Assembly (NCBI GenBank): GCA_017506865.1 | Contig: JAFCMP010000004.1 | Location: 495,902 to 559,901 of the forward strand | DNA from: Tribonema minus | Lineage: Eukaryota; Sar; Xanthophyceae; Tribonematales; Tribonemataceae | DNA: 64,000 nt | Direction of reading: 5' to 3' | Part shown: positions 12,570-63,934 of the stretch, in pieces | Numbering within the stretch: the stretch's first letter is position 1 | How the letters are laid out: each line of letters opens with the position of its first letter | The notes under the pieces: model-generated | The model's database searches: none | The model's input: the letters and a program-made list of their open reading frames with translations, nothing else | Told to the model about the DNA's origin: nothing | Made by a program: the position numbers and the translations under genes

Positions 12570-13694
12570 TCATTCCTTGAAATTGATCTTCACCACCTTG
12601 ATTTCCTTATCAGGTATCTTGGTCATCATGATCTTGAGCTGATCACAGAAGTCTTTCATCACGTTCCCAAAGTGTATGCTTGGTGCCCACACAGGCTCGC
12701 CGAGGGCGGATACCTTACCATCGTACAATTTACGGACACCATCAGGGTTTATCCTCAAGATGTACATCGGCCTGTTCGCCATTGACTCAAAGACACTCAT
12801 CGTCCGCTTGTTCTGGCAGACCTCCGGATACTTGGTCTTGCTGCTGTGTCCGTTCTCGTCGAACTCCACATCGATGATGTGTGTCAGCATGTCGAACATG
12901 ATATCGGGCCTGTGCTGGGAACACCCGTCGGTGATTGCCTTGTCCGTGCATACAAGGTACTCGTTGATCTCTGGAAGTTGATCGAGCACATACTCTGTGA
13001 AAATGTGCTCACGCCTGACCTTGAACTTGCGCAGCGCGTTGGGATTGAGTATGCCCTCACAGCGGTAGCACAAGCGCCTGCCTTCAAATGTCTTGTGTGC
13101 AATGGTCCGCTCCTTGTAAGGATAAAACATGCATGCCTCGGACTCGCATGTGTCTGCTGTGCCACACTCGTAGCACATGCGCTTATTGATCTTGTGCACA
13201 CACAACCCGCTTCCTCCGTGCTCCGGGCACATTTGCTTCCGTATGCCACACGAACAATAGGCAGATCCTCCACAACCAGGCTCGCGACACATCTTCTTAA
13301 GTTTGCCGTGTAAACAGCTTTGAGAGCCGCCACAGGCTGCACATTCTTCTTTACGTTTGTTGTGCTCACAGAATGAGCCACCACCACATCCTAGCCTGCA
13401 GTCGCGCTTCCTAGTACCGTGTTCACAGTACGCACTGCCACCACACTTTCTGCAGTACGGTTTGCTGAGATTGTGAGGGCAGTTGTACACATTCACCATG
13501 TCTTCGAGTTTGTGAACATCGCACCTGCGGGCTCCAATGGCTCTAATGCCAAACCTGGCTCTCGTGTCACAGCCATCAACCTCGAGGTGCTTCGCTTTAG
13601 AAGCCTTGTGCGCAGCAGGTTTGGCCGCAGCTGCAGGCTTCTTGGCAGTGGCCTTATCGGATACGGGCTCGGTGGCAATGGCAGATGGGCTCAT
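12570..13694 (-). CDS. Zinc-repeat protein with nuclease-like C-terminus
   Basis: The 374-residue protein starts at an ATG embedded in TATAAATG. Residues 1-38 are Lys/Ala/Pro-rich like histone H1 tails. An EsV-1-7-like unit follows (CDTRARFG..CDVH). Then come about six Cys/His knuckles of the type CGGSAYCEHGTRKRDC. A further Cys pair (CYRCEG) leads into a C-terminal domain with MFDMLTHIIDVEFDENGH and a spaced Lys, compatible with a PD-(D/E)XK-type nuclease core. Proteins with the same zinc-knuckle array are common in large algal and protist viruses. The fusion suggests a nuclease guided by the fingers, but activity is inferred. The gene appears intact. Confidence 0.7.
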   Translation of the reverse strand: MSPSAIATEPVSDKATAKKPAAAAKPAAHKASKAKHLEVDGCDTRARFGIRAIGARRCDVHKLEDMVNVYNCPHNLSKPYCRKCGGSAYCEHGTRKRDCRLGCGGGSFCEHNKRKEECAACGGSQSCLHGKLKKMCREPGCGGSAYCSCGIRKQMCPEHGGSGLCVHKINKRMCYECGTADTCESEACMFYPYKERTIAHKTFEGRRLCYRCEGILNPNALRKFKVRREHIFTEYVLDQLPEINEYLVCTDKAITDGCSQHRPDIMFDMLTHIIDVEFDENGHSSKTKYPEVCQNKRTMSVFESMANRPMYILRINPDGVRKLYDGKVSALGEPVWAPSIHFGNVMKDFCDQLKIMMTKIPDKEIKVVKINFKE

Positions 13695-44779: not shown

Positions 44780-46957
44780 TCAACCGCTATATTTCGCGCA
44801 GGTCAGTGTGTCGCAGCTGACTCGCCAAGAGTTGACACCCCAAAGTCTTCTTAAAGTCTCTTGAACACAAGAGGTTCCGCAAAGTTCAACCAGTGCTTTG
44901 GTAACTTCAACGCTGCTCAAACATGCATTCAGCACTTGTGGGGTGCGAGGGTGCAATTCGTGGTAGGCCTCATACACGCGGGGACACATGTCAATGGCAA
45001 GTTGAGTGTTCACCGCAAGGCCAGCCACACTCGCCTGGGCAAGCCCCTCGTCCCACCCTCCAATGCCGCAGCAGATGGAGGCATGAGTGATGCGCTGCGC
45101 TGCCCCCATCACTGGTCTGTCAATATCAAGGTCCTGTGTGGCAGCAGCAGCACACACAGATGCAGAGTTGGCGTTAGGTGCTGAACCCAACGGCAACGGC
45201 TCTGAACGTGGTGTATCTCTATTAGCGTCAGTTTCAACTTCAATGTCAACTTCAACGTCAACTGCAACCACGGGTGCCACCCGCATGGGGGCGCCGGAGA
45301 GCAGCGACGGCGTGAGCAGTGCATGCAGCAAACCAGCGGCGCCGCCTGCGCGCTGCGCGCCTGAGAGCGCGTCAGTGGGTGCTGCACGTGTATCAGTGAC
45401 TGCAAGCGCTTGACTGAGCTCAGCGTCGGCAGCGGCCTGGCTGGTACCTCTACCCATGGGAGGCGCGCGCGCGCGCGACTCACCACCGTGCGCGGCCTGG
45501 TAGGCTGCCAGCTGCTCCATGATCGAACTCAGCTGCGCGGGCGCGGGTACCGCGGCAGCGGCGACAGCGGGCGTGGGGCCATAGGGGCTGTGCTGCCCGT
45601 GACCCCGGCCAGGCTGGCCGCGGCCCGTGGGGCGGGGGTACCTGCCGCCATGACCGTCTGGCGCCGCCGAGCCACCGCCGCCGTTGGCGTTCACCCTGGC
45701 CAGACACTCCGGCGAGCCCTTGTGCTGGTGCAGCGCGGTGTGTGAGGGCTGCGTGGCGCCGCAAGTATAGCAAGTGGGGGTTGCGCGCGACGGCGCGCTC
45801 GCAGGGGGGGCGTAGGGGGCGCCGTGGGGCTGCGCGGCCGGCGTGGCCGCGCTGAGTGCGGCAACTTGCAGTTGAAGTGCGGTGAGTGCAGCGGCCTGCA
45901 CTTTCTCACGGCTGCGGTAGCCCGCCTCCCTCTGCTCAAAGTTCTTGTCGCGCGTCAAGCGTGACAGCGACTTGCCACTAGATGACTTGTTGTTCTTGCG
46001 GCGCAGGCCGGCCTTACGCTCCGAAGCGACGGACGCCGGCGGCGCGACAGAGGCAACGGACGAGTCATCGCTGTCAGACGCGGGCGCGCGCGCGCGCGTC
46101 TTGGCGCTCTTTTTGCTGGGGCCAGGAAAGCCGTCAGTAACCGCCTGGATTTTGGCCAGCGACTTCTGGCGCCAGCCCTGGTCTAGCATCTCTGCCACCT
46201 TGTTCAGCTCTTTCTCGGTCAGGAGCCGGAAAATTCTGCACAGGTCATGCACCACCTGGTTCAAGAACTCCTTGCCCTGATCAGACACAAGCTCTTTGAA
46301 CATGGCCCCCGCTTCTGAAATCACCTTGTACAGCAAGGTGGCAATGGTGAACTTGTCCTTGTTCTTGATTGGCATGAGCCAGCAAAAACCAGAGCGAGCT
46401 TCAATCACTGTCAAAATGGCAACATGGCCGTCAGTGGAGGTCATGGACGTCGCAGTGATGTCTGTGTGCGCTCGCTGGAACATGCGAGTTGGCAGCGTCA
46501 ACATCAGCTGGGCTTTACCAGTGGTAGCTTTCTTGCGCTGCAAGCAAGCGGTACAACTAGTGACGTAGGCGCGCACATCAGTGCTCATCTGAGGCCAGTA
46601 AAAGCGCTCAAAGATTCGCAAGTGGGTAGCGCTGACGCCTGCATGCCCGGCCGTGGCGTCATCGTGTCCAAGTCTCAGCACTAGGGCTCTCAGAGCTGTG
46701 GGTACCAGCCATTGGCGCAGCACCATCCCGCGTTTGGGGTGACTAGTGGCCAGGTGTACCAACAGTCCATCGTCTTCAATGCAGTACCAATCCTGGTTCA
46801 TCATCAGGTGTAAGGCCAGCTCACTGTCCTGGGGAAGGATCCCCTCTCTCAGTGTGCGGGCTATGGCCTGGCTGTGGGGGTCTCGCTGCTGGAACTCTAC
46901 AAAGGCTTCTCTGCTGAGCATCGCTGGAGTGGGGTTAGGTCCTGCTTCGGTTGCCAT
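44780..46957 (-). mobile_element. Rearranged Ty3-type fragment: integrase + gag + methyltransferase start
   Basis: One open frame from the ATG at 46955-46957. The first part is an integrase: HHCC finger (GHDDATAGHAGVSATH, CTACLQRK), catalytic Asp in HTDITATS and Asp in LVSDQGKEFL. It stops before the catalytic Glu. It then passes into gag-like sequence with a C2HC finger (CYTCGATQPS, HKGSPEC) and Gly/Pro/Arg-rich text. It ends with the SAM motif of a cytosine-5 methyltransferase (SICCGIGGWDEGL, then LAIDMCPRVYEAY), cut after motif II. Integrase-before-gag order shows a junction between two element copies or a deletion. It is probably inactive. Confidence 0.75.
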
Positions 46958-47859
46958 TCTAACAAGCAACTATGTAGGTGTGTGGTTGTAAAGATCTGTG
47001 GCATGCATGGCTTACTTGTCTCTGCAGCCTGGGCTGCTGCTGATGCTGATGATGATGCTGCTGCTGGGGGAGCCATAGTGGATGTTGTTGGGTGGCTTCA
47101 GTCACTGTGCCTCTACTTGGTCTTGTTGCTCCAGCTCTCAGGTTGTGTGCTTATGCAGAGATCTCATAGCCATCAATACTTGCAAACCCCCAAACAAGGG
47201 GCAAGTCTTAATAGTCATGAAGATCCACTACAGTGCAGCAGTCTCACTTCCTATGCTCTGAGTGTATGTACACAAGACTGAACATGAGGGCACTGACACA
47301 TCATAAGCCTATTGATAATAAGTACTTCAATTATATACATCAAACCGTGTCACAACCCCCACGACGTCAAGCTGAAACCGCGAAAGTCGGCGCAGACGCA
47401 ATGTTTCTAAATGAGTTGCTGACGGCTTTTGGTGTGTCATTGCCTTCTCGTGTATTGCGCGCTAGCAGCTGCATGGCCGTTCCTCTTGATGGCTCGAATG
47501 TGTCATATGTGTGGTGTGGCCCTGTCAGGAAATGCTTTTGATCGAGGTAGCATTGAACCTACTTCTGCCAAGTCAGGTGTGCTACCAACTTCAAATTGTG
47601 CACTGATGCTGCTACCAATGCTTGCACAATGTTTGCAAGCGGTTTTGGTGCCCAGTGATCGTGCAGGGTGCATGTGGACTCCATGGCGTACGCAATGATT
47701 GTCGCACCTTAGGTCCTTAGCTATAGTGATACGAAAAAACTAGGTGGTAATATGTGAAAATGTGTGATGTGGGATGAGTAAGATGCTATGTTGAAGCTGA
47801 CTTTTGGTGAGCAGTTGAGAAATAGAGAGAGGTAGAGAGAGAGAGAGCACAGAGACAAT
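46958..47859. other. Intergenic stretch with GA microsatellite
   Basis: 900 bp without a supported gene. A GAGAGA tract lies at 47823-47848. Confidence 0.5.
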
Positions 47860-48819: not shown

Positions 48820-50320
48820 TCATGTACCGAACCCCTCATACCTCTCTGGGTTGCAGACCCATGCCCCACGGCGCTTAATCTCACCAAATGCCGCAGCTGC
48901 ATTTCCAGCAGTCACCATAGGTGCAACTGGTCCACTGGCACCAAGCGGCGCAAAAGTTGGCTTGCCAGTCTCATATGATATGACCGAGCCAAACTTCACA
49001 AAGAAGTCAGTGCCTAGGATGCCATCCATGCCTGGCAGCTCCACAATGAAGCACCTGGCACTGCTTACCCCCGAACTGTAACCATAGGGTCACCGCGCCA
49101 AGAATGGGGATGGACTTGCGAGTGTCAGCGAGCTCTATGACAGTGGGATCACGCCTCTCCAGACGGCATCTAGCTCCAGCTGGCAAGTTTTCAGCTTGCT
49201 TGCAAGACAGCAGCGTGATGTCAGCGCCGGTGTCCACTAACATCTTCAAGCCGCGCTCCATGACAGCGCGCTCGCTGCTCTTGCGCTGGTCGCCGCACAG
49301 GCGCCACGTGGTGAGCACCAAACCTCGGCTCTGCCAGCCATTAGAATCTGTGTCTCCGGCGTCGGCGCTCGCGCCTAACTTGAACACCTTGCTGGTGTCA
49401 TGCGCGGCATCAGTGCGCGCGCTCTGGTCATTTGCCATCTGGCATCTTGCAGGTGTCGTCTGGCACCTTTCTCTGGCCACCTGGCGTCTTGCAGGTGTTG
49501 TCTGGCACCCCTCTCTGGTTTTCTGGTCACTGGTTCCTTTGATGTCTCTGGCGCCACCATTGCCCTCCCAGTGGCACTCTGGCTCCATTCTGGCGTCCTC
49601 ATCGCTCATGACGGCAGCTGCGCTGCGTATTGCAGCCGCGCGAACCGCCTGTACATCACTAGCATCTGGCCAACTGGCATCAATGAGTCGTGCTTCCTCA
49701 TCATCACTCTCCTCCTCTGTGTCTGAGAAGTCTAGCACATCGCCCTTGTAGCTTGCTGGGTGCATGCGCTGAGTGCTGTTACCTTGTGCGCCTTCTGTGC
49801 TACCAGTACGTTGAGCGCTGCTGCTCACAACGCTCACTGGCGCACCAACTGTGCTGCAAGTAGGTTGAGCGCTGCTGCTTGACACGCTAGCTGCATTGTC
49901 GTTACGCTGAGCACTGTGCTGCAAGTCACTGCTGCTCAGCTGAGCGCTGCCGTCATCAAGCTCTGCCACAGCGCGTTGTGCTCTGGCAACATCCTCCTCA
50001 TCTTCGGGAACATGCACTAGCACATTCTGCGCAGCAGTCATCCACTCTGGTGGCGGCGCATTCAAGTCATGCACCAGCTCAAAGCCTTGCTGTGCTGGTG
50101 CATCCCAACTAGGTTCTGGCAAGTCCATGATTCCTGCTGCGTCAGCTGCGCGCAAAATTAAAGCTGCTGCCCTGGGCATGACCAGGTTTGCTATCATGAG
50201 GCTGAGCCTGTCCTTGGGCAAAGCTGGCAATGGCTTGTTGTAGGTCATGAGCCTTGCTAACTGATCATGCGTGGGCTGTTGCATGTTCAACTGCACCATC
50301 ATCCTGAGCGCTGCGCACAT
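48820..50320 (-). pseudogene. Methyltransferase end and aspartic protease, frameshifted
   Basis: From 50320 the frame reads the last part of a cytosine-5 methyltransferase (QLARLMTYNKPLPALPKDRL, SLMIANLVMP, the motif IX/X region). Then comes a long acidic Ser/Ala-rich linker with direct repeats (CQTTPAR), and then a retroviral-type aspartic protease with MLVDTGADITLLSC and TVIELADTRKSIPILG. Near 49040 the good frame shifts, and the rest of the protease (ELPGMDGILGTDFF, FGSVISYE) runs to 48820. The upstream methyltransferase half is in another frame (50265-51263), so this element needs at least two repairs. Confidence 0.75.
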
Positions 50321-51263
50321 AGTATTGCCCAGGTGCGCCAGGATAACATCTAACAGGGCTAGGAAGCAAGCCAGCAGTGCTGTAAACGCCTTTCTTGCCT
50401 TTCATGCGCGGTTTGAGAAACAGCAGGGATCCAAGCTCCGGCACCGCCGCACGCATCGAGGTCTCTGTAGTGCGCCGCACAAGTGCATTGATGAAAGCTC
50501 CAAAACGCTGAAGTGCCTCACGTGCCCCCGGTCTAGCTTTTACTACGGCGCAGTATACTCTGGTGCGCCTGCAGGGGCATCCCAACAGCTTGCCTGGCAG
50601 CAACGCTGTGTACACCACGTACCCCTTGCTGACTAGAAGCTGCTTCGCCGCTTGCCAAGTCTTGGAACGCAGCATCTGCCGCACAATCTCAAGAAGTGCA
50701 AACTTGACCCTCCCGGCTATCAGGCTACTGGCTGCCATACTGGTACACTCCGCCGCAGCGCCTTCGCGGATGACGCCGTCGTGACTCGAGTAGTCTGTGC
50801 ACGGCGGGCTATACGTGACGACATCAGGCTTCGCTAGCGCCACCGCCTCCGCTACTGCCTGGTCGCCGACGCTAGAAACAATAGTGCTTGTGCCGCCAAA
50901 CGCTGTCTTGTACGCCGCGACCACAACGGGGTCAATGTCTACCGCCAGCTGCGTCTCCACCTCCTCGCCGTGCTCGCGCAGATGCTCAAAGCCTGCCTCC
51001 CAGCCGCCGATGCCCGCAAACAAGGATACGTGCTTGAGCGTCCTGACGCGCCCGTTGGTCGTCTGGCCCGTGTGTACTGGTGCGGGCGTCTCAGTTCCCT
51101 GTGTCACGGCAGCGAGGTGAGGTTGAGAGGCGAGAGGATCGGGTGAGCCAAATGCCCGTGCGCATCTGGCGATTGCTGGCGATGTCTGGTGAAGGTCGTG
51201 ACTGGCTACCACCACCCAGCTCAACGCTGCTAGAAGCGTCGCCGCTGGCGCTGCTGGTGCCAT
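50265..51263 (-). CDS. Cytosine-5 DNA methyltransferase domain of retroelement
   Basis: ATG at 51261-51263. Core motifs are in canonical order: I SLFAGIGGWEAGF (80-92), II QLAVDIDP (105-112), IV VTYSPPCTDYS with catalytic Cys155, VI as LEIV with Glu192 in place of the usual ENV, and VIII CRRTRVY (231-237). Motifs IX and X continue in a different frame in the neighbouring entry. Upstream, in the same frame, lies the gag segment, separated by a TGA and a TAG. In the family the enzyme flips cytosine and adds a methyl group at C5. The Asn loss in motif VI and the frame breaks suggest that this copy is dead. Confidence 0.85.
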   Translation of the reverse strand: MAPAAPAATLLAALSWVVVASHDLHQTSPAIARCARAFGSPDPLASQPHLAAVTQGTETPAPVHTGQTTNGRVRTLKHVSLFAGIGGWEAGFEHLREHGEEVETQLAVDIDPVVVAAYKTAFGGTSTIVSSVGDQAVAEAVALAKPDVVTYSPPCTDYSSHDGVIREGAAAECTSMAASSLIAGRVKFALLEIVRQMLRSKTWQAAKQLLVSKGYVVYTALLPGKLLGCPCRRTRVYCAVVKARPGAREALQRFGAFINALVRRTTETSMRAAVPELGSLLFLKPRMKGKKGVYSTAGLLPSPVRCYPGAPGQYYVRSAQDDGAVEHATAHA

Positions 51264-51275
51264 CTAGCCTTGTAG

Positions 51276-52904
51276 TCAACGTGCTCTGTGCGTCAGATTG
51301 CAGATGCGTAAGTGGTTCAAGCATGATGCTAGCTCTCGTGCAGCGTCACTCCGGGTTGAAGTTGAAGTTGAGGTTGACGCGCGCGCCGCCGCTGCGCTCC
51401 TCGCCTCTGTGCAGTGATCAGCTGAGTGCTGAGCAGATGATGCGCATGCATGGATATCGCGCGCGCCGCTGGTGCTGAGCAGCGCTGCTGCGTCAACTGG
51501 TGAAGTTCGAGCACCCGGTTTGACCGCAGTTGAAGCATGCGTCTGGGCACTGGCAGAATCATGCATGTCACTGGCTCTGAGCACTGCTGCGCCGGCAGAT
51601 GAATCATGCGTGCTGGCCCCAGTTGATGTTGAATCATGCGCGTTGACATCAGTTGAAGTTGAACTGCGAGTGCCAGCATCAGCGCTGCTCGCGCGCAATC
51701 TAGGTGCTCCAGCTCGTGACCTGCCTCCAGCGCTCGCGCCGCTGCTGCCACTAGCGGCTGCACCGTGCAATTCACCTTTCTTGCGCCGCTCGCACTCCCA
51801 GATCAAGTCATCCGTGGAGATGCTTGCGAAAACGTCCTTCGCGCTCGCCGCTGCTGCGCGCCTAGTGCCACGCGACCTGCTCCTGTCGCCGCGCGAGTGA
51901 CTCCTGCGCCTGTCACCATCGCGCCTGCCGCCATCGTGCCTATCGCCACCGCGCCCGCCGCTGCGTGACCGGCTCCTGACAGCGTGCCTGTCGCCGTCGC
52001 TGCGGCGCCGCGTGTTGCCAGCAGGTGAGTGGGAGCGCTTGCGCCCGCGTTCGCCAGCGTACTGCCGCTTTGCGGAGCGGGACCTGCCGCCGTCGCGCCT
52101 CCAAGTGTGCTCGCACCATGATGTCTGTGCGCCATAGTCCGTGTTGCGGCTGGGAGGCGGTCCTTGCTGGCTGCGCTGAATGACTGAGCTGTGCGCGAAC
52201 TCCCTCCCGAGCGCTGCTGCATCAAACCGCAGCTGCTCCAGTCTGTGCTGCAGGTTGTGCGCCTCGTCCTGCATGTCCAGCACATGCTGCTTGCGACCGG
52301 TGACCATGCGCTGGTCATCGTAGCGGTTCCAGTCTTTGCACTGCTGAGTGGCCCAGTGCTCAGCAAATCTTATGCCCGCGTCCACCAGCCTCTTGCACTT
52401 GAAGCAGATGAAGGCCTTATAGGCGTTGCCAGCGCCGTTGCCGCCATGTGTGCCGGCGCTGCCGCCATTGTTGCTGGTGGCCTTAGCCGCCATGCCGCGC
52501 ACCTGTGGCTTGCGAGAGTGTGGGCGGATGTCGGTGTCGCTGGACTCGATGCCCACCGTCCTGTTGTGGATCTTGTTGGCGCTCCGCTCCAAGTATTCGT
52601 CGCTGTTGGGGAGCTCAAGCTGCTGCTCCTGCGGCATGTGGCTCTGTGCTAGCATGAGCTGGCAGTCGGCGCACGCCTGTGCCAGCAAGGCGTTGTAGCT
52701 CTTTGAAGCAGAGTTGATGGCCTCGTCGAGCGTCGCCTTGTGGCTGGGTACTCTGCTGTCATACCCTTCCTGTCGCAGCTGATTGGTGACCTGCGCCGGC
52801 ATGCCGCGGAAGAACGCTTGCAGCACCCGCGAGTCGGCCGAGCTCAGGCCCGCCGTGTTCGCCACGCCCTTGCTGCGGTGGCCGTACTCTTGCGGCGCCT
52901 CCAA
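51276..52904 (-). pseudogene. Gag part of minus-strand retroelement, 5' truncated
   Basis: 542 open codons with no ATG and a TAA three codons upstream, so the front of gag is missing. The start is gag-like (VLQAFFRGMPAQVTNQLRQE, DEAINSASKSYNALLAQA). A Cys/His cluster follows (ICFKCKRLVDAGIRFAEHWA), then an Arg/Ser-rich nucleic-acid-binding stretch (RRRSHSRGDRSRSRG) and a Ser/Thr repeat region. It ends in TGA just ahead of the methyltransferase frame. The missing 5' part and 5' LTR may have been lost when the plus-strand element arrived at 53134. Confidence 0.6.
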
Positions 52905-53133
52905 AATGGGTTAGAGACACGCCCGTTGTTGCGCCTGAATTCCGGGCCTGGCATGATGTAGTCTCTGCTCCTCTAGCTCGTGCCTCTAGCTCGTGCGTCT
53001 CGTCTCCTGTGTCTGGCGAGTGGGGAAATACTAGAGTAGGGCTGGGCGTCAGGCGCTGGACCAGTATCAATCAGGCTCTGGGGTGCATTCTCAGTTTGGT
53101 CGCAGCACACATTGCTTGCGCCATTCATGTATT

Positions 53134-54014
53134 TGATACAAAGTCCATGTCACAGTGCAGTTCAAGTGCTGTGTACACCTTTGACTGTACTGTACAAGTG
53201 TACTTCAGGCCAGTTCACCTGAGGACCGTTCCTAGGAATTTGCTTGGACTGTTCCAGGAACTACTTGCACAGAACAATCTGGGGCAGCATCTCTGTGGCT
53301 TGCTTGGGTACTAACTCTTGCTAGCCAGCTGCTGGACAGCAGGGACTCATTGGAGCTGAGCCATCACCGATACACCAGGTGTGTGGTCTTTTCTCCATGC
53401 AAGTGGTTAGCCTACATCCTGAGAGTGAGCTCCTGTTTCCCAGAAGGGCTTGGCCTGCTCATGGAGCATCCCCAGAGGCCTTTCCTTTCGGATCATGGCT
53501 CAGCTCCAACTCTCGGGATAACACCAGCGTAGCGCGGAATCACTTTTAGCGCGCCGTATACCCAATGTGACGTCCTCCCAGAGAAGTTGCATTGATGAGT
53601 TGCACACTACCATGCCAGGCTTGCTACTGCGCTTAGCCCGACGAGTAGCGGCACAGTGTTTGCAACGGAATAACTCAGATCTGCATGACATGCAACGCGG
53701 CGATCAAAGGCCGAGCCCAGAACGTTGCACCTGGAGCCGCGACATGCATGCTCGTAGCAACATCGCATGTGCGCTCAACCCCCTTACGACTGGACACTGT
53801 CGAACGGGTGCTACAGCGGTAGTCCTCATGGCAAGGAAGGCACGCGGTAGTACTGATCACACTGCTGCGTACAGGCCTGGACGACGCCGGGAACGTCGTT
53901 GCTACCCAGCCCTGACTGCTAGGCATTTTACATAGCCGATGCAGGCCCAGCAATACACCCACTGAAGATTCAGCGTCTTCTGCAAAGAGGGGGTGTTGAC
54001 AGCTGGATTTAATC
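53134..54014 (+). repeat. 5' LTR of the methyltransferase retroelement
   Basis: Starts TGATACAAAGTCC and ends TTTAATCA, with 4-bp inverted ends TGAT/ATCA. It is directly followed by TGGGCAAAGTGTC, a TGG-starting string suited to a tRNA primer site. Its first 66 bp match the sequence at 63935-64000 with one single-base indel. The right border is inferred from the TGAT/ATCA rule and the TGG. The LTR would be 881 bp. Confidence 0.65.
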
Positions 54015-54163: not shown

Positions 54164-57100
54164 ATGGCGGATAGCGTATCAAGATCGGCGACGGACAGCT
54201 CCGGGGAGGCTGGAACGACCCCGGGAGGCGAAGGGAACGGTGGCGGTGTGCAGCAGCAAGCGCTCGTGCCCCCCGAGCAGCAGCCGGCGACGCAACCCTT
54301 CACGTCGTCGGCCGGTCTAACCTCATCAGCGACGTCGAGCGCCGCCCCCTCGACCGTCGCAGTGACGGCGACCACCACCGCCCCCGCAACCGGAGCCGCC
54401 CCGGTGTCGCTCCCTGCTTCCACGGACCCCTCCGGCGCGGGTCTTGGCGTCCCGCCTACGACCTCCGCTCCTCAACCCGACTTCAACGAGATACTGCAAG
54501 GGCTGCGTCGCGCCCTGCCGCTGATGCCAGAGGGCGCCCTGGCTCAGCTCGCGGGACGCGCCGTCAAGGAGGCGGCCGAGATGACGTCCCCCGTCTCATT
54601 TCTCGGCACTCGTCCGCCGGCCTCATCAGCGCGCCCCTCCTTCACGCCAGGCTTCGCGCCCTTCTACCACGCACCAGGCCCTTTCGCCACGCGCACGACT
54701 CTGCCTCCTTCCCTCACTGCGGTGCCCACCGCGGCAGAGCTGGAAGCGACGGTCCAGGAGCTTGAGCGCGCGCTGGATCAACGCATCAACACCACCCTCG
54801 AGAGCAGCCACGTGGCCGAGCGCGAGCTCAAGGACGCCGAGCAGCGCGCCGCCGCCGTCGAGCGCGACCGTCGTAACAGCCGCCCCAGCCCTGTGGCGAA
54901 CCCCTCGCAGCTGCAGCTCTCGCTGCTGCAGGGGCAGGAGGCTGAGTACGCTCACCGCCTGGAGGTCGTGCGACGGCAGCAGGCGATCCTGTCGCGTAAC
55001 CACCACCTGCTCGTCGAGCGCCTGCACCGCTACACGCGCATCAAGGAGTACCTGCTGGAGGCCAAGCGCGCCGGGCCCCCAGCGCTGCACCAGTTCGTGC
55101 AGGAGACTGCCCCGCGCCTGCTGGCCGATGCGGCGCAGTGGGACGCGCGCGACCTTCGAGAGGACCCCAGCGTCGGCCTCACCGGCGCGGGCCTTCCCTT
55201 CGCGCCCCCACAGACCACTACTCCGTTCGGCATGGGAGCGCGCGCCAGCGGGAGTCCCTACGGCGTCGCGAACGGCAACGCGCCCCCCCTGCTCAGCGCC
55301 ACTGTTGGCACGTCACCCGCCACGAGCGGCAGCGCGCCCCCCGACGCTCAGCGCGAAGACACTAGCTGGCAGCGCTACTTCAGCCCTACGGCGATCCCAA
55401 TCACCCTGGACGTCGGCGCCACCACGACCTCTCGCCGGCAGTTTGAACAAGCTGCCGAGTACAACCGCGTGCCGACGCGCCATTGGGTCTACGCGCTGCG
55501 CAAGTGCCTGACGGCGGAGCAGCAGGGCTCGATCATCAACGTGCGCAAGGACCCCGTCACTGGAGAGGAGAAGGTGCACACCTGCGGGGAGATGTCCTAC
55601 AACGAGATATGGGACGCCATACAGGAGCCTTACGACAACCCCAGCGGCCGCGCAGACGCGATGATGGAGCTCGCAAACATGCCCTGGGAGCCGCAGCAGA
55701 CCCCCCGCGAGTTCGCCACCAAGCTTCTCAAGGCGTCGCAGCGCACCTCGAACATGTCCTCCGCTGACGCCAGCCTGCTCAAGTCCTACTACTTCGCGGC
55801 GATGGCGCAGCCTCTCAAGCAGCTCTTCCACCAAATGCAGCTGATGCGCGAGGACTGGAACCGCATGGTGGACCGCACCCAAGACCTGTACGCGTCCCTC
55901 AACGTCACGCAGAAGGACACGTTCTGCGCCAACCTGACCGCGATCAAGAGCCTTCACTCAGCCACGGCAGCAGCAGTCGAGTTCGGCGCCACCGCCGGCA
56001 AGCGGGCGCGAGCTCACAACCTACGCACGGACGACGGCGACATGGACCTCAGCGACGACGAGACGCCGTCTAGCCTCGCCGCCATCACCCCAACCCCGAC
56101 CAAGAGCACGCCAGCTGCCGCTAAGCCAAAGGGCACTCCCAAGAAGGAGCTCGACCCTTCCGTGAAAATGGCGTGCTGGGGGTGTAGCAAGGAGGTGGCA
56201 CGCGGAGAGCTGACGGCCCACAAGAGCGTCTGCGTGCCCTGGCTCAAGAAGCGGCTGGAGAAGCTCAAGAAGGAAGGGAAGCCGCATGATCAGCTTCAGG
56301 CCAGGCTGGAGAAGCTGAGGGGCAACAAGAAGCAGAAAAGTGAGTCCTATGACACTAAGTCTTCTGCAAACTTCATGAGTGGCATGCTTGAGCATGAGCC
56401 TGCGCGTGTGCAATCCAAGGCGGGTCCCGATGCTCACTGCCACAAACTTCAAGTTCAAGTTGCATGCGCATCCCCAGAGGCTAGCAAAGTGGCCGGTGAT
56501 GCAACTGCTCAGGTGAACCCAGAGGCTGATCCCGCAGCCTGCGAAGTCACTGGCACGCGTAACCATTTGCTAAGCCGTGAGATCGGTACTCGCATGCTAG
56601 CAGCTATCATGTGCGCCTGTTGCGTGGCTAGGTGCAATGACCATGACACCGACGCCAGAGCTGACGCAAAGCGCAAACGCAGCGTGCCGTGCGCGGCGTC
56701 TACAGCGGTAAGTGGGAATGCCGATCTCACTGACCTTGCTTCCGATCTGTGCGCCACCCCCCGTGACACTTTCGTGCACTTGCAGACTAGGAAGGGGGAT
56801 GCGTGCGCTCACGACGGAGAACCCGACGTGACGGCCAGACCACTGCGAGTGGCAGAGCTTTGTTGCGGGGTGGGGGGTGTACATAGGGGGTTAGAGGACT
56901 TTGCCAGACACACAGGTGTCAAGGCTGAAGTGGTCCTTGCTGTAGATAGGGCCGAATACACATGCGAGGCGTACAAGCACCAGTTCCCTGGCACAGAAGT
57001 TCTATGTGCAGACATCGCCAGTCCAGCAGTGCTCAAGCGCCTCAAGCAGCTGGAACACGATGCATTCTGGGTCACTGCCCCATGTGTTGACTTCTCGCCC

Positions 57101-60100
57101 TCGGGCAAGGGCGTTGAAGGCGAAGCGGCCAGCGTGTTGCCCTCCGTTGCACAGCTTGCTGTAAATGTACGGCCAAAATTGGTCTTTCACGAGAATGTGC
57201 CTCGAATGCTGTTGTCTGGGGCATGGGGCTGCGCCGACGGCCACATGCGTCAGGCGGGGTATTCGACCTTTGAGGTGCAATTTCGTGGCACTGATGTTGA
57301 TGGTGGAAGTTCACGCGAGCGCATCTATACTGTGTCTGCGTGCAACACCCAGGCCACCCCTGCACGTTTTGCCCGCCTGAATGCCCTGTTGAATGAGCGC
57401 TTTCGCAGCAGTACCCCAAAGACTGTGCGCGATTGCACTGGTTGCATGGAGGACACATTTTACTGGGATCCTCGTCAACCGCACCGTGCTGGCGTGCTTT
57501 CTACTGACATGCCACTGCCTAGCCCTGTGACTCGCCAACCTGGCAAGGGTCCCACAAGGTACGTACAGAGAGCCAAGGATGCCGGTCCTGCAAAGGACGC
57601 ATTGATACTCTCGCCTGAACAGGTGATGGAGTGCCTGGGCTACCATGAGCCCTACCCTGAAGGCACACTCACCCAGAGACGCAAGTGGGCCGCTGACCTA
57701 GTACAGCCCGCGGCTGTGAGCGCCCTGATGCAGTGTGTTCATGCCGTTGCCTCTCTGCCCAATTGTTGGGAGAGACCTGCCCCCGCTGGCCCTGACGTAA
57801 CTCCTGGAGAGGTAACAGTGCATGATCACACGGCGCCGCCGCCGGAGTGGGTCGTGGACGCATCGCAGCCAGCACTACTGAGGATCGCCGGGACCTGCTC
57901 AAGCGCGCTAGGGAGTGCTGCGAACTGGTGTTGGGAGAAAGGGAGAGCGTTTCTTGCTTCGCTGCGCCAAGGTGAGCCAGTGCAATTAAATGAAGTACAG
58001 TGGCAACGCGGTGACGACGAGTCTGACTCTGATTCTGACTCACCAAGAGTAACCGTTGAGCCAGCAGTGCCTCAGTCGACTGCAACACCCAAGACGCCGA
58101 TGGTAGAAGAGAGCGCTAACCCTGACTCTGACTCAGCGACACCACTGCAGACTCGCATGACACTGCACGAGTTGAAACCTAGGTGGGCAGCAAGAGGCAA
58201 AGCGCCCATGCCACTCCACAGAGTCACCCCGGTAGGGAGGCCACGCAAGAATGGCTTTGTACACATGACCATGCGCACACAGGTGGGCGATGCCGTGCAA
58301 GAGTTTGGTCTGGATACACTGGTGGATTGCGGCGCGGAGGCTGAGTTCATCAACAAAGATTCAGCGCACAAGCTGCCGCCGGGCACCATCTGCCCTCTGG
58401 CTGATGGGGACTTCACTACGGTGGAGCTCGCTGACGCCAAGAAGTCGGTACCTGTAGAAGGGGTGGTGCACGCTCAGGTGCGCTTCAAAGACCACCTGCT
58501 GACGCACCGATTCTACGTCGTGGACCTGCCTTACCAGGCAATCTTAGGGTCAAACTTCTTTGGCAAGTACGGCTCCGTGATCTCCTACGAGCACGGGATG
58601 AAATTCTATCCCGCTGGCTCGTCAGGCCCCGCTGTGCCCATGCGTGAACGTGCGCGCGTTGGAGCCTTGGAGCCCCCCGAAGCAAACTCCATCAAGATAG
58701 GCTCAGCAAGGGTACACACCAAGGACAAGCCTGTACTGCCAGAACGCAAATATCTTCTCAGAGCAGCCTCAAACCAGGTCATTGACGCTGACACCGCGCA
58801 CACGCTGGAAGTGGTGTCTCACCCGCCACTGCAGTGCACAGGTCCTGTAGAGGTGCTGCTAACCCCAGACGTCCCAGAAGCGGTGACGGCCGTGAACAAG
58901 TTGGCCGAGCAAGGCGTTGTGTTGCTGGACTCAGTAGATACTGCCATGCCGAACAAACCACTCAGGCTAATGGCTGAAAACACTTCCACAATGCCAGTGC
59001 TCATCCGTAAGGGAGCAATACTAGGCGCTGTTGAAGCACCGGAGATGGTGTGCGGTCTAGACGTTGACCAAGAGACGCTCACAGCTAACCTCACGCGCAT
59101 AGCGCTCAGCCGACTTTCTAGCGACCCCCCAACCGTAAATCAGGTGAAGCCTAGCTCAGATCCCACAGCAACCACGCAGGCTGAGGCGGAACGCACCGCT
59201 CACAGGCGTAAGGTAGCTGAAGAGCACAATGCCACCTTAGAGCTCTGCACGGACGAGGAGCTGGCAGACGTGCTGAAGCGGGATGGTAAGGTGATACCTA
59301 TGTTGGAAGAGCGCGACAAAGACGGTGTTAAGTACTACGATCGGGTCATGGAAGTGCTACGCCGCAGACGTGCTGCCTTTGCAAAAGACCCCAAAAACCC
59401 TAGGGTCACGGATCGCTTTGACGTGGACATTGATACCGGAGACGCGGCCCCCATAGCCGACAAGGCGCGGCGTTGGGCCGAGCGCGAGGCCAAAATCATT
59501 TTTCAAGCGATTCAGGACGAAAGGAAGCGTGGGCAAATCAGACCTGCTAGTGGGCCATGGGCCAGCAACCCTGTGCTGGTGGCTCAAAAGGGCAAGATAC
59601 GCTTCTGTGTTGACTACAGACCGCTTAATAAGGTCACAAGGCGTGACGAATACGGCTTAGGCAACATGGAGGACTTGATTCAAAAGGTGGCAAGTTCAAG
59701 AATTTTCTCAGCTCTGGACTTTGCCTCAGGCTATAGGCAAATTCCCATGACCAAAGAGTCCTCTTGCAAGACGGCTTTCCGAGGGCCTGATGGCTCCCTA
59801 TGGGAGTACAAGGTCGCGCCGTTTGGACTAGTATGTCTGCCCAGCATTTTCACGCGCTGCATGCACGAGCTGTTAGGCGCTGCCAGACAGACTCATGCGT
59901 GCGTGTATGTGGATGATGTGCTGGTTCACAGCAAAGGGCTTGAAGATCACATAGCTCACTTGGACGATGTGCTGCGTCGCGTGGAGGAGTATGGCATGAG
60001 TGTGTCAAGGCACAAGTGTCAACTCTTCGCCGAGGAAGTGACATACCTAGGTCACAAAGTCGGCCGGTATGGCATTAGGCCGTGTGAAGACAAGGTCAAG

Positions 60101-61471
60101 GCCATGGTGGACATGATGCCCCCGCTCGGTAAGGATGGCAAGGTTGACAAACGTCTCATGCAAGTTTTGATGGGATGTTTCAACTACTACAGGCGCTACA
60201 TTCACCGATTTGCGTCCATCGCGGCGCCATTGATGGAGTGTACCAGGGACGGTGCTGACATGACATGGAATAAACGCCGTCGAGATGCACTCGCAGAGCT
60301 CAAACGCGCGATGTCGAGCGCACCCGTTATCATGCACCCAGATTTTGACCTGCCATTCATAGTACACACAGATGCTAGCAAGTTGGCAGTCGCTGGAGTG
60401 CTATCCCAGTTTGTGCCACTTGAGAAGCTTCGAGAGCGGCACAAAGATTTTCCATGGGCTCACACCCGCCGTGCCAAGACGGTGGATGGTAAGCCAGCCA
60501 GAGAGGTAGTTGTAGCATTTTACAGCAAAGTCAATTCAGTGCAAGACGCAAAGCTAGGTGCCACCGCGCTGGAATGCCTTGCTGTAGTGCTGGCCCTGAA
60601 CAACTTCCGCTCATACGTGTGGGGTAGGCCAGTAACCGTCATTACAGATGCGTCGGCACTGCGCTGGTTGCTAAAACTGAATAACCATAATAGCAAACTC
60701 CTGCACTGGGCCATGCGCCTCCAGGAATATGACGTCATGGTCGTACACCGCCCTGGTAAGGACAGTGGCAATGCGGACTGCCCCTCACGAATGCCTCAAA
60801 TGACGGAAATCCTGGGCCCCAGAGAGTATGACCACGCTGATGAGCAGTGGCCAGACTGTACGGATGCAGGACCTGCTCCGCCTACTGGGGTACGCTTTGA
60901 GAGCGAAGAAGTCGTGGATTCCCCCGCGAATATAGGCAGGATTGGGGCTTATGCCTCATACCCAGATGGCCCTGGCATGCGCTTTAACAAAGTCGCACAG
61001 GTATCCCCAGACCTGAGCGAGGCCATGCTCAAACTTAACCCCGCACAAGTGCAAGATGCTTTGTTTGACACCTCGCTTGAAAGCAGCAGTGGGGACGCCG
61101 TGCTTTTCAAAGAAGAGGGAGGTGAGCAGCCGGAGCAGTCGGAGCCGGAGCTGCAGGAGCTGGCGCTGGCGTCAATGCTTTGCAATCTGCGCACCGGAGT
61201 GTACCCAGATGGCGTGTGGGATAGCTGCGCATCACTCTTGGCACAGCAAACGGGTGAGCGTACCGAAACCGAGAACTGTGAAAGCAGCAGCGAGCAGGAA
61301 CCTCAACTTCAAGTAGACATGATGTCAGTTGATAGCCCTGTTCAACCCCCGCGCCAGCAACCTCGGAACACCCTGGGGACCTTGCAGGAGGAAGCTCAGG
61401 TCAGCCCGCAGTGCTTGAGCGCGATAAATTTGTGCAATGGCAAGGGCGTGACTCTTTCTGCATGGCTGTGA
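54164..61471 (+). CDS. Ty3-type polyprotein: gag, DNA methyltransferase, protease, RT, RNase H
   Basis: One uninterrupted 2435-codon frame, 150 bp behind the LTR. Gag occupies about 1-720 with coiled coil (190-300) and a C2HC finger (CWGCSKEV, HKSVC, about 670-690). A complete cytosine-5 methyltransferase follows at about 893-1195: I ELCCGVGGVHRGL, IV WVTAPCVDFSPSG, VI FHENVPRM, VIII SSRERIYTV, IX LSPEQVMECLGYHE. Protease is near 1380-1470 (LVDCGAEAEFI with Cys in the usual Ser/Thr position, then AILGSNFFGKYGSVIS). RT is at about 1800-1990 (CVDYRPLNKVTRRDEYGL, YVDDVLVHS). RNase H is at about 2060-2210 (VHTDASKLAVAGVL, ALECLAVVLAL, HRPGKDSGNADCPSR). Integrase lies downstream out of frame. Methyltransferases inside retroelements are known from dinoflagellates and charophytes. 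Here the enzyme sits between gag and protease. Confidence 0.92.
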   Translation: MADSVSRSATDSSGEAGTTPGGEGNGGGVQQQALVPPEQQPATQPFTSSAGLTSSATSSAAPSTVAVTATTTAPATGAAPVSLPASTDPSGAGLGVPPTTSAPQPDFNEILQGLRRALPLMPEGALAQLAGRAVKEAAEMTSPVSFLGTRPPASSARPSFTPGFAPFYHAPGPFATRTTLPPSLTAVPTAAELEATVQELERALDQRINTTLESSHVAERELKDAEQRAAAVERDRRNSRPSPVANPSQLQLSLLQGQEAEYAHRLEVVRRQQAILSRNHHLLVERLHRYTRIKEYLLEAKRAGPPALHQFVQETAPRLLADAAQWDARDLREDPSVGLTGAGLPFAPPQTTTPFGMGARASGSPYGVANGNAPPLLSATVGTSPATSGSAPPDAQREDTSWQRYFSPTAIPITLDVGATTTSRRQFEQAAEYNRVPTRHWVYALRKCLTAEQQGSIINVRKDPVTGEEKVHTCGEMSYNEIWDAIQEPYDNPSGRADAMMELANMPWEPQQTPREFATKLLKASQRTSNMSSADASLLKSYYFAAMAQPLKQLFHQMQLMREDWNRMVDRTQDLYASLNVTQKDTFCANLTAIKSLHSATAAAVEFGATAGKRARAHNLRTDDGDMDLSDDETPSSLAAITPTPTKSTPAAAKPKGTPKKELDPSVKMACWGCSKEVARGELTAHKSVCVPWLKKRLEKLKKEGKPHDQLQARLEKLRGNKKQKSESYDTKSSANFMSGMLEHEPARVQSKAGPDAHCHKLQVQVACASPEASKVAGDATAQVNPEADPAACEVTGTRNHLLSREIGTRMLAAIMCACCVARCNDHDTDARADAKRKRSVPCAASTAVSGNADLTDLASDLCATPRDTFVHLQTRKGDACAHDGEPDVTARPLRVAELCCGVGGVHRGLEDFARHTGVKAEVVLAVDRAEYTCEAYKHQFPGTEVLCADIASPAVLKRLKQLEHDAFWVTAPCVDFSPSGKGVEGEAASVLPSVAQLAVNVRPKLVFHENVPRMLLSGAWGCADGHMRQAGYSTFEVQFRGTDVDGGSSRERIYTVSACNTQATPARFARLNALLNERFRSSTPKTVRDCTGCMEDTFYWDPRQPHRAGVLSTDMPLPSPVTRQPGKGPTRYVQRAKDAGPAKDALILSPEQVMECLGYHEPYPEGTLTQRRKWAADLVQPAAVSALMQCVHAVASLPNCWERPAPAGPDVTPGEVTVHDHTAPPPEWVVDASQPALLRIAGTCSSALGSAANWCWEKGRAFLASLRQGEPVQLNEVQWQRGDDESDSDSDSPRVTVEPAVPQSTATPKTPMVEESANPDSDSATPLQTRMTLHELKPRWAARGKAPMPLHRVTPVGRPRKNGFVHMTMRTQVGDAVQEFGLDTLVDCGAEAEFINKDSAHKLPPGTICPLADGDFTTVELADAKKSVPVEGVVHAQVRFKDHLLTHRFYVVDLPYQAILGSNFFGKYGSVISYEHGMKFYPAGSSGPAVPMRERARVGALEPPEANSIKIGSARVHTKDKPVLPERKYLLRAASNQVIDADTAHTLEVVSHPPLQCTGPVEVLLTPDVPEAVTAVNKLAEQGVVLLDSVDTAMPNKPLRLMAENTSTMPVLIRKGAILGAVEAPEMVCGLDVDQETLTANLTRIALSRLSSDPPTVNQVKPSSDPTATTQAEAERTAHRRKVAEEHNATLELCTDEELADVLKRDGKVIPMLEERDKDGVKYYDRVMEVLRRRRAAFAKDPKNPRVTDRFDVDIDTGDAAPIADKARRWAEREAKIIFQAIQDERKRGQIRPASGPWASNPVLVAQKGKIRFCVDYRPLNKVTRRDEYGLGNMEDLIQKVASSRIFSALDFASGYRQIPMTKESSCKTAFRGPDGSLWEYKVAPFGLVCLPSIFTRCMHELLGAARQTHACVYVDDVLVHSKGLEDHIAHLDDVLRRVEEYGMSVSRHKCQLFAEEVTYLGHKVGRYGIRPCEDKVKAMVDMMPPLGKDGKVDKRLMQVLMGCFNYYRRYIHRFASIAAPLMECTRDGADMTWNKRRRDALAELKRAMSSAPVIMHPDFDLPFIVHTDASKLAVAGVLSQFVPLEKLRERHKDFPWAHTRRAKTVDGKPAREVVVAFYSKVNSVQDAKLGATALECLAVVLALNNFRSYVWGRPVTVITDASALRWLLKLNNHNSKLLHWAMRLQEYDVMVVHRPGKDSGNADCPSRMPQMTEILGPREYDHADEQWPDCTDAGPAPPTGVRFESEEVVDSPANIGRIGAYASYPDGPGMRFNKVAQVSPDLSEAMLKLNPAQVQDALFDTSLESSSGDAVLFKEEGGEQPEQSEPELQELALASMLCNLRTGVYPDGVWDSCASLLAQQTGERTETENCESSSEQEPQLQVDMMSVDSPVQPPRQQPRNTLGTLQEEAQVSPQCLSAINLCNGKGVTLSAWL

Positions 61472-62935
61472 GGAATTACCTAGAGGACCGCAATGAACCT
61501 TCTGATGCCAAGTTGGCAAAGTTCATACCCAGAACCAAGAATTCTTCACGCTAGAGCCTGATGGCCTGTTGGTGCACTTCGCAGCCAGTCGCCCCAAGAG
61601 GGAGCCCTGATCACACAGTGGGTCACCCCTGAGGCACTGAAGCCCCTGGTGCTACGCATGTGTCACGACGATGGCAGCGCTCAGCACTCATCGACCGCCG
61701 CCACGCACGCCAAGGTGTTTGAGAACTTCTACTGGCGCGGCATGGGAGCTGACATTCGCGACTACGTGCGCAGTTGCATAGCGTGCCAACAGACCAAACC
61801 TCAGACGACAGCTCAGTACAAGCAAGTGCTCATGCCCCTCAGCGCATGTGGCAGCGTCTTCACGTAGACTTCACTGAGCCAGGAGTCATATCTCTTGAGG
61901 GGCACCGCTACCTACTCGTGATAGTGGAAGCCAGGTCTGGCTATTGCTGGATTTTCCCCACTAAAAAAAGATCCGCTGCTGAGGTAGCTCCCCTGCTTGC
62001 GAAGGTGCTGCTTGAATGTGGCACACTGGTGGAGGAGTTGTGCTCGGACGGAGCCAAGGAATTTGTGGGTGCGTTGGTGACTAGCCTCTGCCGGGCCTTT
62101 GCTGTTCAGAAGGTAGAGACTAGCGCGTACCACCCCAGTCTAACGGTGTCGCTGAAACTTGAACGGTCGTGTCAAGAGGGCCCTGGCCAGAGTGTGCTCG
62201 CACTACCAGAATCCGTTGGCACGAACAAGTTGACATCGTACAGTTTGCACTGAGGAACACTCCCAGGGAAGAGAACAGGCCTTACGCCTTTCTTCTGTGT
62301 CTTCGGTCGCGAGGCCAGATTCCCCCTAGATGCCCTCATCTCTAAGCCAGAGTGCACGACAGATCTGCACATAGAGGTGAAGCGGTTACAAGAGAATCTG
62401 AAGCTGGCAGAGTCTGTCATAGGCGAGGCGTTAAGCTCCAGGGCTGAGCGCATCCAAGCTCGTAACGACAAGATTCAACGCACCCTGCATGTAAGTGTAG
62501 GCGACTATGTATGGGTCAAAAAGCCGCCCTCTGAAGGACGCGAGAGTGGCCTGGAGGAGCGCTTCCACCGGACCCTGGAGGCTGATAGCACCCTACGGTG
62601 ACTCAGGGCTGTCATTTCAATGTCAAACTCAATGGCGCGGCCGTGTGCGCTCACTGATGCCACAGTGGAAAAACATGAAGCCGTATCACCCTAGGCCTGC
62701 TAGACTGGTCAGCGAGGAGTACACGCCGCCGTAGACCCAGAGCAGCTGAAAGAACTGGACCTTGATCATCGGTTACAGAGAAATTCTAGACCGCAGGGCT
62801 AATGAGGACGGTAGCTGGTCATACAAGTGGCTGGCACGCGACGGTACCTCGTCTGAGTGGATTCATGAGAAGGAGTTTGCAGAGAGTTTCATAGTGCCGT
62901 CCTGGGTGCTAGACACTTTTTCATGCCCTCTATGA
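61472..62935 (+). pseudogene. Integrase with chromodomain, several frame breaks
   Basis: Three frames carry successive integrase parts. The HHCC finger is at about 61640-61800 (HDDGSAQHSSTAATHAKVFE, CIACQQTK). The catalytic core is at 61860-62110 (VDFTEPG with Asp, then ELCSDGAKEFVG with Asp). Then AYHPS is followed, in another frame, by NGVAE with the probable catalytic Glu. The C-terminal part is at 62377-62600 (DKIQRTLHVSVGDYVWVKK). A chromodomain-like segment reads EILDRRANEDGSWSYKWLAR to about 62935, as in chromoviruses, where it targets insertion to marked chromatin. At least three single-base breaks mean the integrase of this copy is not functional as written, unless sequence errors explain them. 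Confidence 0.75.
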
Positions 62936-63089
62936 GATCCAACACGAAGGTCACATGCCGTCTTACGCAGAACGCCCTAGCCCACGTGAGGACCGCTCAC
63001 TACCCAAAGACGAAGCGTTGAAGCGCTACCCTTGTGGCACTCAGGTGGAAGGCAAATTTCAGGTGCCGATCCCGAGACACTGAGTACAT

Positions 63090-63550
63090 TTGGGGCCAAG
63101 TGCGCGACTTCGTACGTTAAGTGGCGAGTGCGTTACACGGATGGAAATTTGGGAGGACCTGACATCGGCCCACAGGTACGCTCGGGAAGTTGCTAGACAG
63201 AAGGTGTGCGAGACAGGCTACGCAGGCTGGGCGCGTGAACGAGGCAAGCCTGACCCTCTGAGAATGCTGCAGATGTTACAGCGTGACCCGCCCCCAGGCG
63301 TGCGAGTCACGGTGTGCCCCCAACGTTCCCACCAACTTTGGGCCACTGTACGTCGGGCAAGTACTGCGCTACAGGTTCCCAACGGCTGGAGCCGTGGCAA
63401 CTGCTAAGGCACATCTCATCGAACCGTGAGCGCGGGGAGCACGTATTTGATGTAGAGTTCCCCAATACGCGCGACACGGGGGAAACAGGGCCGATGGAGA
63501 GGCGCCTGAAGCTCCGCCAAGAGTACTACCGCGACGATCGCAAACGCTGA
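63090..63550 (+). pseudogene. Tudor-like pol tail, frameshifted
   Basis: Short frames give WRVRYTDGNLGG (about 63120-63155) and then YVGQVLRYRFP, NGWSRGN and ERGEHVFDVEFPNTRD in three different frames up to the stop near 63550. The order matches the domain at 48399-48716 (EGEVVRY, GWSRGK, FTFEV). It is probably a chromatin- or peptide-binding end of pol, now broken. Confidence 0.45.
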
Positions 63551-63922
63551 ACCTTCCTCGTGGAACCTGCTATGGGCACAGGAAGTCATAGAGCAGCTGA
63601 AAACCCCCCACACTCCCCATAGAACCTCAGGTTGCGGTGGGCCAGAATGACCTAGGTACCGCGCAAACGCCCGCGTCGCCGTTGAAGCTGTGCTGACCCT
63701 GTGCGTAGAGCAATGCGAGAGCAGTGTCATCGTCACGCACCCGGTGCACGCCAGACCGCCTAGGGTTTGACACCGCGCCGCGTAAAGCCGGCCAAGAGGG
63801 ACTTGAGAGCGTGTACCGTGGTGGGATGATCGGCGACAATGACACCGATGCTGTCTTCTGCGTTAACAAGTATCATAAAACGCCGTGCGTCTCATGGCGC
63901 GCCGTTGGACGGCGGCCCTTTC
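63551..63922. other. Retroelement 3' untranslated region
   Basis: About 370 bp between the last pol segment and the polypurine tract. No supported gene. Confidence 0.4.
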
Positions 63923-63934
63923 AAAGAAGGAGGA
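63923..63934 (+). promoter_or_regulatory. Polypurine tract
   Basis: Twelve purines (aaagaaggagga) lie directly before the TGATAC start of the 3' LTR, the expected primer site for plus-strand DNA synthesis. Confidence 0.85.

Follow-up and report, generated by a model that had tools for sequence, protein, structure and literature searches.

Tribonema minus, a xanthophyte stramenopile, harbors a retroelement whose polyprotein includes a C5-cytosine methyltransferase (MTase). The element occupies the downstream end of the DNA analyzed here, a stretch of 64,000 nucleotides (the window), and we are nearly certain that it is a Ty3/gypsy-type LTR retrotransposon bearing such an MTase, from a family with recent insertions. 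Related families in the same genome carry the domain in intact, altered, or loop-deleted form.

DNA methylation usually is seen as a weapon against transposons. Elements that carry a likely writer reverse the question: what would a transposon gain from methylating? MTase-bearing retrotransposons were described in 2018 from Symbiodinium, with hundreds of copies in one algal genome, and from Klebsormidium. Klebsormidium gypsy and Symbiodinium DIRS elements carry Dnmt3; in yeast, de novo CpG methylation was seen for the Symbiodinium DIRS Dnmt3 domains and no activity for those of Klebsormidium and the LINEs, the latter result being termed inconclusive; and the SymbioLINE MTases form an orphan lineage (PMC5890265). 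A 2025 survey names DNMT3 in retrotransposons together with the LINE orphans, and its accessible text does not contain the word Tribonema (PMC12344493). The accessible text of a microalgal DNMT survey refers to retrotransposons in four places, two of them references, and none concerns MTases inside stramenopile elements (PMC9998398). For T. minus itself, DNMT5 and a DNMT4-like protein have been reported (PMC10538959). In listings of open-licence PMC papers, our searches brought up no account of retroelements with an MTase from Tribonema or any other stramenopile.

The kind of element is therefore already known. New, as far as seen, are the lineages of host and MTase, the existence of two architectures, how many families there are, and the family that lost the catalytic loop. 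The two groups known so far are joined by a stramenopile case in which the MTase is of another lineage.

The window element

An earlier note on this DNA, made from the sequence alone, had proposed a retroelement with a captured C5 MTase: one frame with gag, an MTase with motifs PC, ENV, and RxR, protease, reverse transcriptase (RT), and RNase H. Motifs, Pfam matches, and the frame itself (54164-61471, open throughout) bear this out (Table 1). Pfam recognizes DNA_methylase (E 2.9e-17), RVT_1 (E 2.3e-32), and RT_RNaseH (E 1.1e-22). The protease motif LVDCGAE precedes the RT, which is marked by YVDD, and yeast Ty3 (4ol8) is first among the 14 PDB sequences matched by the window RT (E 2.6e-56). 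Ty3 provides the closest RT and RNase H in the PDB and shares the order protease, RT, RNase H, integrase with the window's RT clade (clade 1). To our knowledge, Ty3 carries no MTase. The same order is present in the window, where the integrase frames are broken, and is intact in the sibling copy L020.

Table 1. Features of the window, with positions counted from its first nucleotide
Feature	Position	Strand	Basis
Decayed MTase of a family H element; frame broken, motif VI reads EIV	50099..51068	-	dN/dS 1.18 against L006
5' LTR, 362 bp, TGAT...ATCA	53134..53495	+	3' LTRs of other copies; sibling LTRs
Likely primer binding site, TGGCTCAGCTCC...	53496..53513	+	adjoins LTR in nine loci including siblings; length inferred
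gag-MTase-protease-RT-RNase H frame	54164..61471	+	2435 codons; Pfam
C2HC zinc-finger-like motif, end of gag	56174..56233	+	pattern CWGC...H....C
C5-cytosine methyltransferase domain	56813..57784	+	Pfam; profile and alignment; AlphaFold
Motif IV, PC (catalytic cysteine codon 57083-57085)	57080..57085	+	alignment with DNMT2 and HhaI
Motif VI, ENV	57191..57199	+	alignment
Motif VIII, RER	57314..57322	+	alignment
Protease active-site-like motif LVDCGAEAEFI	58319..58351	+	motif; protease part 38-100% identical in relatives
Reverse transcriptase and RNase H	59504..60808	+	Pfam; Ty3 RT closest solved chain
Integrase, shifting frames	61533..62499	+	tblastn with P0003 integrase; gaps against siblings
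Conserved C-terminal tail, weak Tudor likeness	62500..63532	+	comparison with siblings and relatives
Purine-rich tract preceding 3' LTR	63919..63934	+	sequence
Start of 3' LTR, cut by contig end	63935..64000	+	sequence; LTR comparison

The earlier note had given the LTR 881 bp. When a 911-base query was compared with the 3' LTRs of other copies, matches were confined to 53134-53495; the LTR thus shrinks to 362 bp, and the remainder is leader. These 362 positions are identical (362/362) to both LTRs of three sibling copies. Such identical LTR pairs mark those three insertions as recent. Two of the three siblings with both ends show a 4-bp target-site duplication, and the third shows none. The likely primer site starts with TGG directly 3' of the LTR.

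Genome searching for further copies yielded three siblings with long frames (3165, 3176, and 3501 aa); most siblings are shorter. Position 61471 therefore is not the natural end of the polyprotein. The window ends where its contig (C4) ends, and its last 1.8-1.9 kb contain 42 gaps relative to L021 and 44 relative to L017; the first 9.1 kb contain 8 relative to L020 and 6 relative to L016. Most of the terminal damage is probably assembly error near the contig end. The copy on contig C442 has the 3' flank TATT (end of L021), which equals the 5' flank of the window copy (53130-53133). The C442 copy lacks a target duplication of its own; the two copies perhaps were swapped in assembly.

Smaller features also recur. 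The C2HC-like motif was found in 7 of 13 polyproteins checked, and P0006, an annotated Tribonema minus protein, is 99% identical to the first 208 residues of the window gag. Judged by eye alone, a fragment of rbcL in L009 resembles the red-lineage form. The D-S/T-G motif of the protease (window 58325) varies: as read in the window and in one copy each of families B (L033), C (L029), F (L036), and G (L035), it is DCG in A (the window's family) and C, DNG in B and G, and DPG in F.

Downstream of integrase, the chromodomain that the earlier note had seen found no support from Pfam or hhalign in family A. Its Tudor-like tail fared better in part: the tail is conserved, and its likeness to Tudor is weak (E 0.038 in L021 and 0.0074 in P0003, short of Pfam's cut-off). 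Gypsy elements with Tudor and chromodomains are reported from Ectocarpus, an alga said to have negligible 5mC (PMC12477816). One of these, Gypsy-10_Ec32, is a stramenopile Gypsy element like the one in the window; it has a C-terminal Tudor domain and a reported homologue in T. minus, and the main text of that paper has 0 occurrences of DNMT (PMC12477816).

The methyltransferase domain

The earlier placement of the MTase at 56843-57754 lies close to the domain limits found here. PF00145 motifs I, IV (PC), VI (ENV), and VIII (RxR) occur in order, and in a HMMER alignment they line up with those of DNMT2 and HhaI. The motif IV cysteine (alignment column C91) is invariant in 9/9 sequences. Motif I reads CCGVGG, LAVD is also present, and by our placement the LVQP stretch would be motif X. 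The AlphaFold model of the domain is confident (mean pLDDT 91.1, pTM 0.90).

Could the join of MTase and RT be an artefact of assembly or annotation? The indel-rich 1.8-1.9 kb adjoining the contig end might raise the suspicion, but 54164-61471 is open throughout. All 16 family A RT places have an MTase upstream, and over 1874 aa the window polyprotein is 99.5% identical to P0002, whose sequence comes from a different record; the join is no chimera. The diverged P0003-P0005 of other records share the architecture. It also recurs on many contigs of the genome, and the artefact reading is refuted for the MTase-RT join; we consider its residual chance negligible.

Extent and architecture

Pfam and protein searches together identified at least 172 distinct MTase places in the genome. 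Family A accounts for 20 of them, another 41 have 46-65% identity, a further 58 have 32-37%, and Pfam alone found 53. Of the matches listed, the tally took 123 of 123 and 119 of 123 rows for the MTase and 97 of 98 rows for the RT; those left aside are second pieces of split matches. Part of these lie outside retroelements, including L001-L003, standalone frames of 367-390 aa. (L001, L002, and L003 are intronless and, compared with the element MTases, nearer to enzymes of phages and bacteria.)

The converse comparison covered 97 RT relatives. An MTase lies upstream of RT in 16/16 family A places, 27/28 family B places (the remaining one has none by coordinates), and 34/53 places at 58-60% identity. 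Among the 19 of these 53 without an MTase by coordinates, the one that was read (L035) has a divergent MTase missed by the searches. A Ty3 RT query added families J, K, and L, all missed by MTase searches; J and L have the MTase, and K has a loop-deleted one. Altogether, an MTase-derived domain was read in 12 of 12 named Ty3 families across three RT clades, these families being a sample among the matches listed and no census.

RT clade 1 comprises families A (window, L016, L020), B (L033), C (L029), F (L036), G (L035), H (L006 with L037), and L (L049); clade 2 comprises D (L025), E (L034), and I (L007 with L038); and clade 3 comprises J (L047, L054) and K (L048). Relatives outside the genome fall into clade 1 (P0003-P0005) and clade 2 (P0068). 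MTase domain and RT share one open frame in 10 of the 12 families, J by overlap with a 3102-aa frame; in H and I the two domains lie in order on one contig, with breaks.

Two architectures were found. Clade 1 elements have the order gag, MTase, protease, RT, whereas in clade 2 the protease (recognized from its motif and from Pfam scores that stay below the cut-off) lies ahead of the MTase. Families J and K seem to follow the clade 2 order, judging by eye from a DSCAG motif as protease. Two domain orders call for at least one relocation, or else for a second capture. In clade 2, family D and P0068 have a chromodomain that exceeds Pfam's cut-off.

Selection and descent

The element MTase is kept by purifying selection. 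Seven informative within-family pairs (families A, B, C, and E) give MTase dN/dS of 0.06-0.19, and A versus B gives 0.22 with high dS; between L006 and the decayed family H copy of the window, the value is 1.18. The MTase changes faster than the RT: between families A and B, RT identity is 90% and MTase identity 61%, with dN of 0.06 and 0.36, respectively.

PC, ENV, and RxR are kept in 8 of 12 families: A, C, D, E, F, G, H (L006), and I. Motif IV is altered in B and L, which have SC for PC, and in J, which has RC; SC also occurs in chain 6fdf (SPSC), named a tRNA methyltransferase. Family K lost the motif IV loop and reads ENA at motif VI in 3/3 readable copies (L048, L052, L053; a fourth, L051, has no readable frame), yet the frame is open and the domain remains similar to that of J (J versus K dN/dS 0.15; RT 0.03). 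These alterations indicate that catalysis is not needed in every family.

At most supported nodes, the MTase descends largely with the RT. In clade 1, the starred nodes of the two trees match, an agreement that speaks for joint descent. Clade 2 holds one conflict, unsupported on the RT side: D pairs with E in the MTase tree (starred), and the RT tree sets D closer to I and P0068 (80/75, not starred). One pair in family E, L031 versus L034, has a synonymous divergence of 0.41 in MTase and 0.20 in RT, which may mean that modules are exchanged between copies.

It is conceivable, and in our estimate a little short of an even call, that a C5 MTase is a standing part of Ty3 replication in this lineage, as RNase H is elsewhere. 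The module would then span at least three clades and perhaps every Ty3 family, occupy two placements relative to the protease, be inherited with the RT rather than as loose cargo, and be non-catalytic in one family.

Origin of the methyltransferase

PDB searches with profiles of clades 1 and 2 returned DNMT2 first, followed by HhaI for clade 1 or DNMT1 for clade 2. DNMT3 chains exist in the PDB. The window MTase profile found 53 PDB sequences at E up to 10, including DNMT2, HhaI, HaeIII, and some labelled DNMT1, and no DNMT3 chain is among them; an origin from DNMT3 is not supported on this ground.

This bears on whether the capture is the same as those already published, which the earlier note had left open. 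The KnitGypsy-Dnmt3 element of Klebsormidium nitens likewise is a Gypsy LTR element whose polyprotein includes a C5 MTase that purifying selection maintains; however, its MTase is a Dnmt3 in the Pol ORF and its repeats are DIRS-arranged, whereas the window element has its MTase between gag and protease, plain LTRs, and a stramenopile host. SymbioDIRS-Dnmt3 and SymbioLINE-Dnmt likewise reach many copies in one algal genome but belong to the DIRS and LINE classes, whereas the window element is of Ty3 type; the SymbioDIRS MTase is a Dnmt3, and the window MTase shows no likeness to DNMT3, in a comparison with the KnitGypsy-Dnmt3 class made by description (PMC5890265). Differences in host, domain order, and MTase kind favor a capture independent of those in the Klebsormidium gypsy and Symbiodinium DIRS elements, as known from their published descriptions.

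No near donor emerged. Viral contigs scanned with the window MTase gave no match, and the clade 2 profile gave 79 viral-contig loci with only 22-36% identity in the best segment. Among the best of 8000 scored candidates, with the element-like pieces P0007-P0009 and P0013 set aside, 57 other proteins are at most 33% identical to the window MTase (two have no figure) and are bacterial where named. Neither a near viral donor nor a near standalone donor is supported.

Trees group the element MTases in three cases and not in a fourth. In the first, they lie on one side of a branch with SH-aLRT 95; they also come together when four long bacterial rows are omitted (98.5), and in a tree of motifs I-VIII that includes DNMT2 and HhaI and omits K and the four bacterial rows (99/98.5). 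With J, K, and L added, they are not all together, and clade 2 stands beside bacterial rows (support 82). The grouping is unsure because branches are long and most eukaryotic DNMTs are missing from the trees. The element MTases appear to constitute what we term an orphan lineage, with distant free-standing relatives, and the best reading of these comparisons is that the domain would be an old, separately acquired module.

A possible trace of methylation

C-to-T differences between copies, counted in element DNA only, differ by sequence context. Between the window element and L022 they affect 70/1250 CpG, 34/1095 CHG, and 70/2540 CHH sites. The corresponding counts are 54/872, 16/780, and 31/1697 for L029 versus L030; 24/867, 12/726, and 28/2046 for L032 versus L033; and 53/570, 27/571, and 47/974 for L006 versus the family H copy of the window. 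In these diverged siblings, the frequency of C-to-T differences at CpG is about 1.7- to 5-fold that at CHG or CHH. Near-identical pairs have little or no excess: L023 versus L025 gives 4/1179 CpG, 3/1107 CHG, and 5/2191 CHH, and the window versus L018 gives 7/1088, 3/910, and 14/1927. The pattern fits CpG methylation of the copies, by an enzyme of whatever source. The CpG observed/expected ratio is 0.85 over the element and 0.66 within its MTase domain; window 1-44000 has 0.91.

What might the enzyme do?

With belief and doubt about evenly balanced, we propose that the element MTase methylates the element's own cDNA or its insertion site. The enzyme would be made as part of Gag-Pol and enter the particle; its position inside Gag-Pol would place it where the cDNA is made. 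Protease would cut the MTase free, and the freed enzyme would methylate the new cDNA or the insertion site at cytosines, probably those in CpG. The new copy might then resemble the host's own methylated DNA, or be steered into tolerated chromatin, perhaps assisted by the conserved C-terminal tail. Self-marking or self-silencing by the element is thus possible. This proposal draws on the motifs and confident fold, the low MTase dN/dS (0.06-0.19), the agreement of RT and MTase trees at the starred nodes of clade 1, the CpG excess in diverged pairs, the DNMT5 and DNMT4-like protein reported for T. minus, and the CpG activity of the Symbiodinium DIRS domains in yeast. Against it stand the altered motif IV of B, L, and J and the lost loop of K, the lack of activity of the Klebsormidium and LINE domains in yeast (termed inconclusive there), the absent or slight excess in near-identical pairs, an element CpG observed/expected that is only mildly low (0.85), and the best PDB match, DNMT2, an enzyme that acts on tRNA.

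That last match leads to a different, unlikely reading, in which the substrate is RNA, either genomic RNA in the particle or, as with DNMT2, a tRNA (here the primer), and methylation aids stability or priming. DNMT2 is the best PDB match of both clade profiles, B and L share SC in motif IV with chain 6fdf, and a joint clade of clade 1 MTases with DNMT2 is not rejected (p-AU 0.34); however, the free tree places the element MTases apart from DNMT2, and HhaI, a DNA enzyme, scores nearly as well. A CFT motif is typical of DNMT2, and it is absent from the window MTase domain. Marginally less probable again is a domain that serves mainly to bind nucleic acid or protein, its catalysis incidental and being lost in several families. 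Family K would fit this well, because the frame is kept in 3/3 readable copies that lack the motif IV loop and J versus K dN/dS is 0.15; the altered motif IV of B, L, and J and the faster change of MTase than RT (61% versus 90% identity between A and B) point the same way, but 8 of 12 families, including the window's, keep PC, ENV, and RxR. Least probable of these, and in our view improbable, is action on host chromatin, in which the MTase changes or imitates silencing rather than marking the element's own cDNA: the tail domains do resemble chromatin readers (Chromo in clade 2, a weak Tudor likeness in clade 1), but the reader-like tail of clade 1 is weakly supported and there is no sign of nuclear action.

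Methylation of the element's own cDNA or insertion site thus remains our preferred reading. Intact, altered, and loop-deleted MTases occur side by side in one alga, so the benefit to the element can be tested. The T. minus elements also contrast with Ectocarpus, where 5mC is reported to be negligible (PMC12477816).

Neighboring sequences

The window contains further material related to these elements. A second MTase element, of family H, lies just upstream of the main element on the opposite strand (49000-52904). At 44783-46969, also on the minus strand, one frame encodes an integrase (Pfam 1.7e-19) and, after it, the initial 72-82 residues of an MTase resembling that of family F; this order was not seen in the other elements, and the frame is probably a rearranged relic. 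Elsewhere on the minus strand are proteins with the EsV-1-7 cysteine-rich motif, which is typical of brown algae and their kin: one at 1317-2813, with 11 stretches, and another at 12573-13694.
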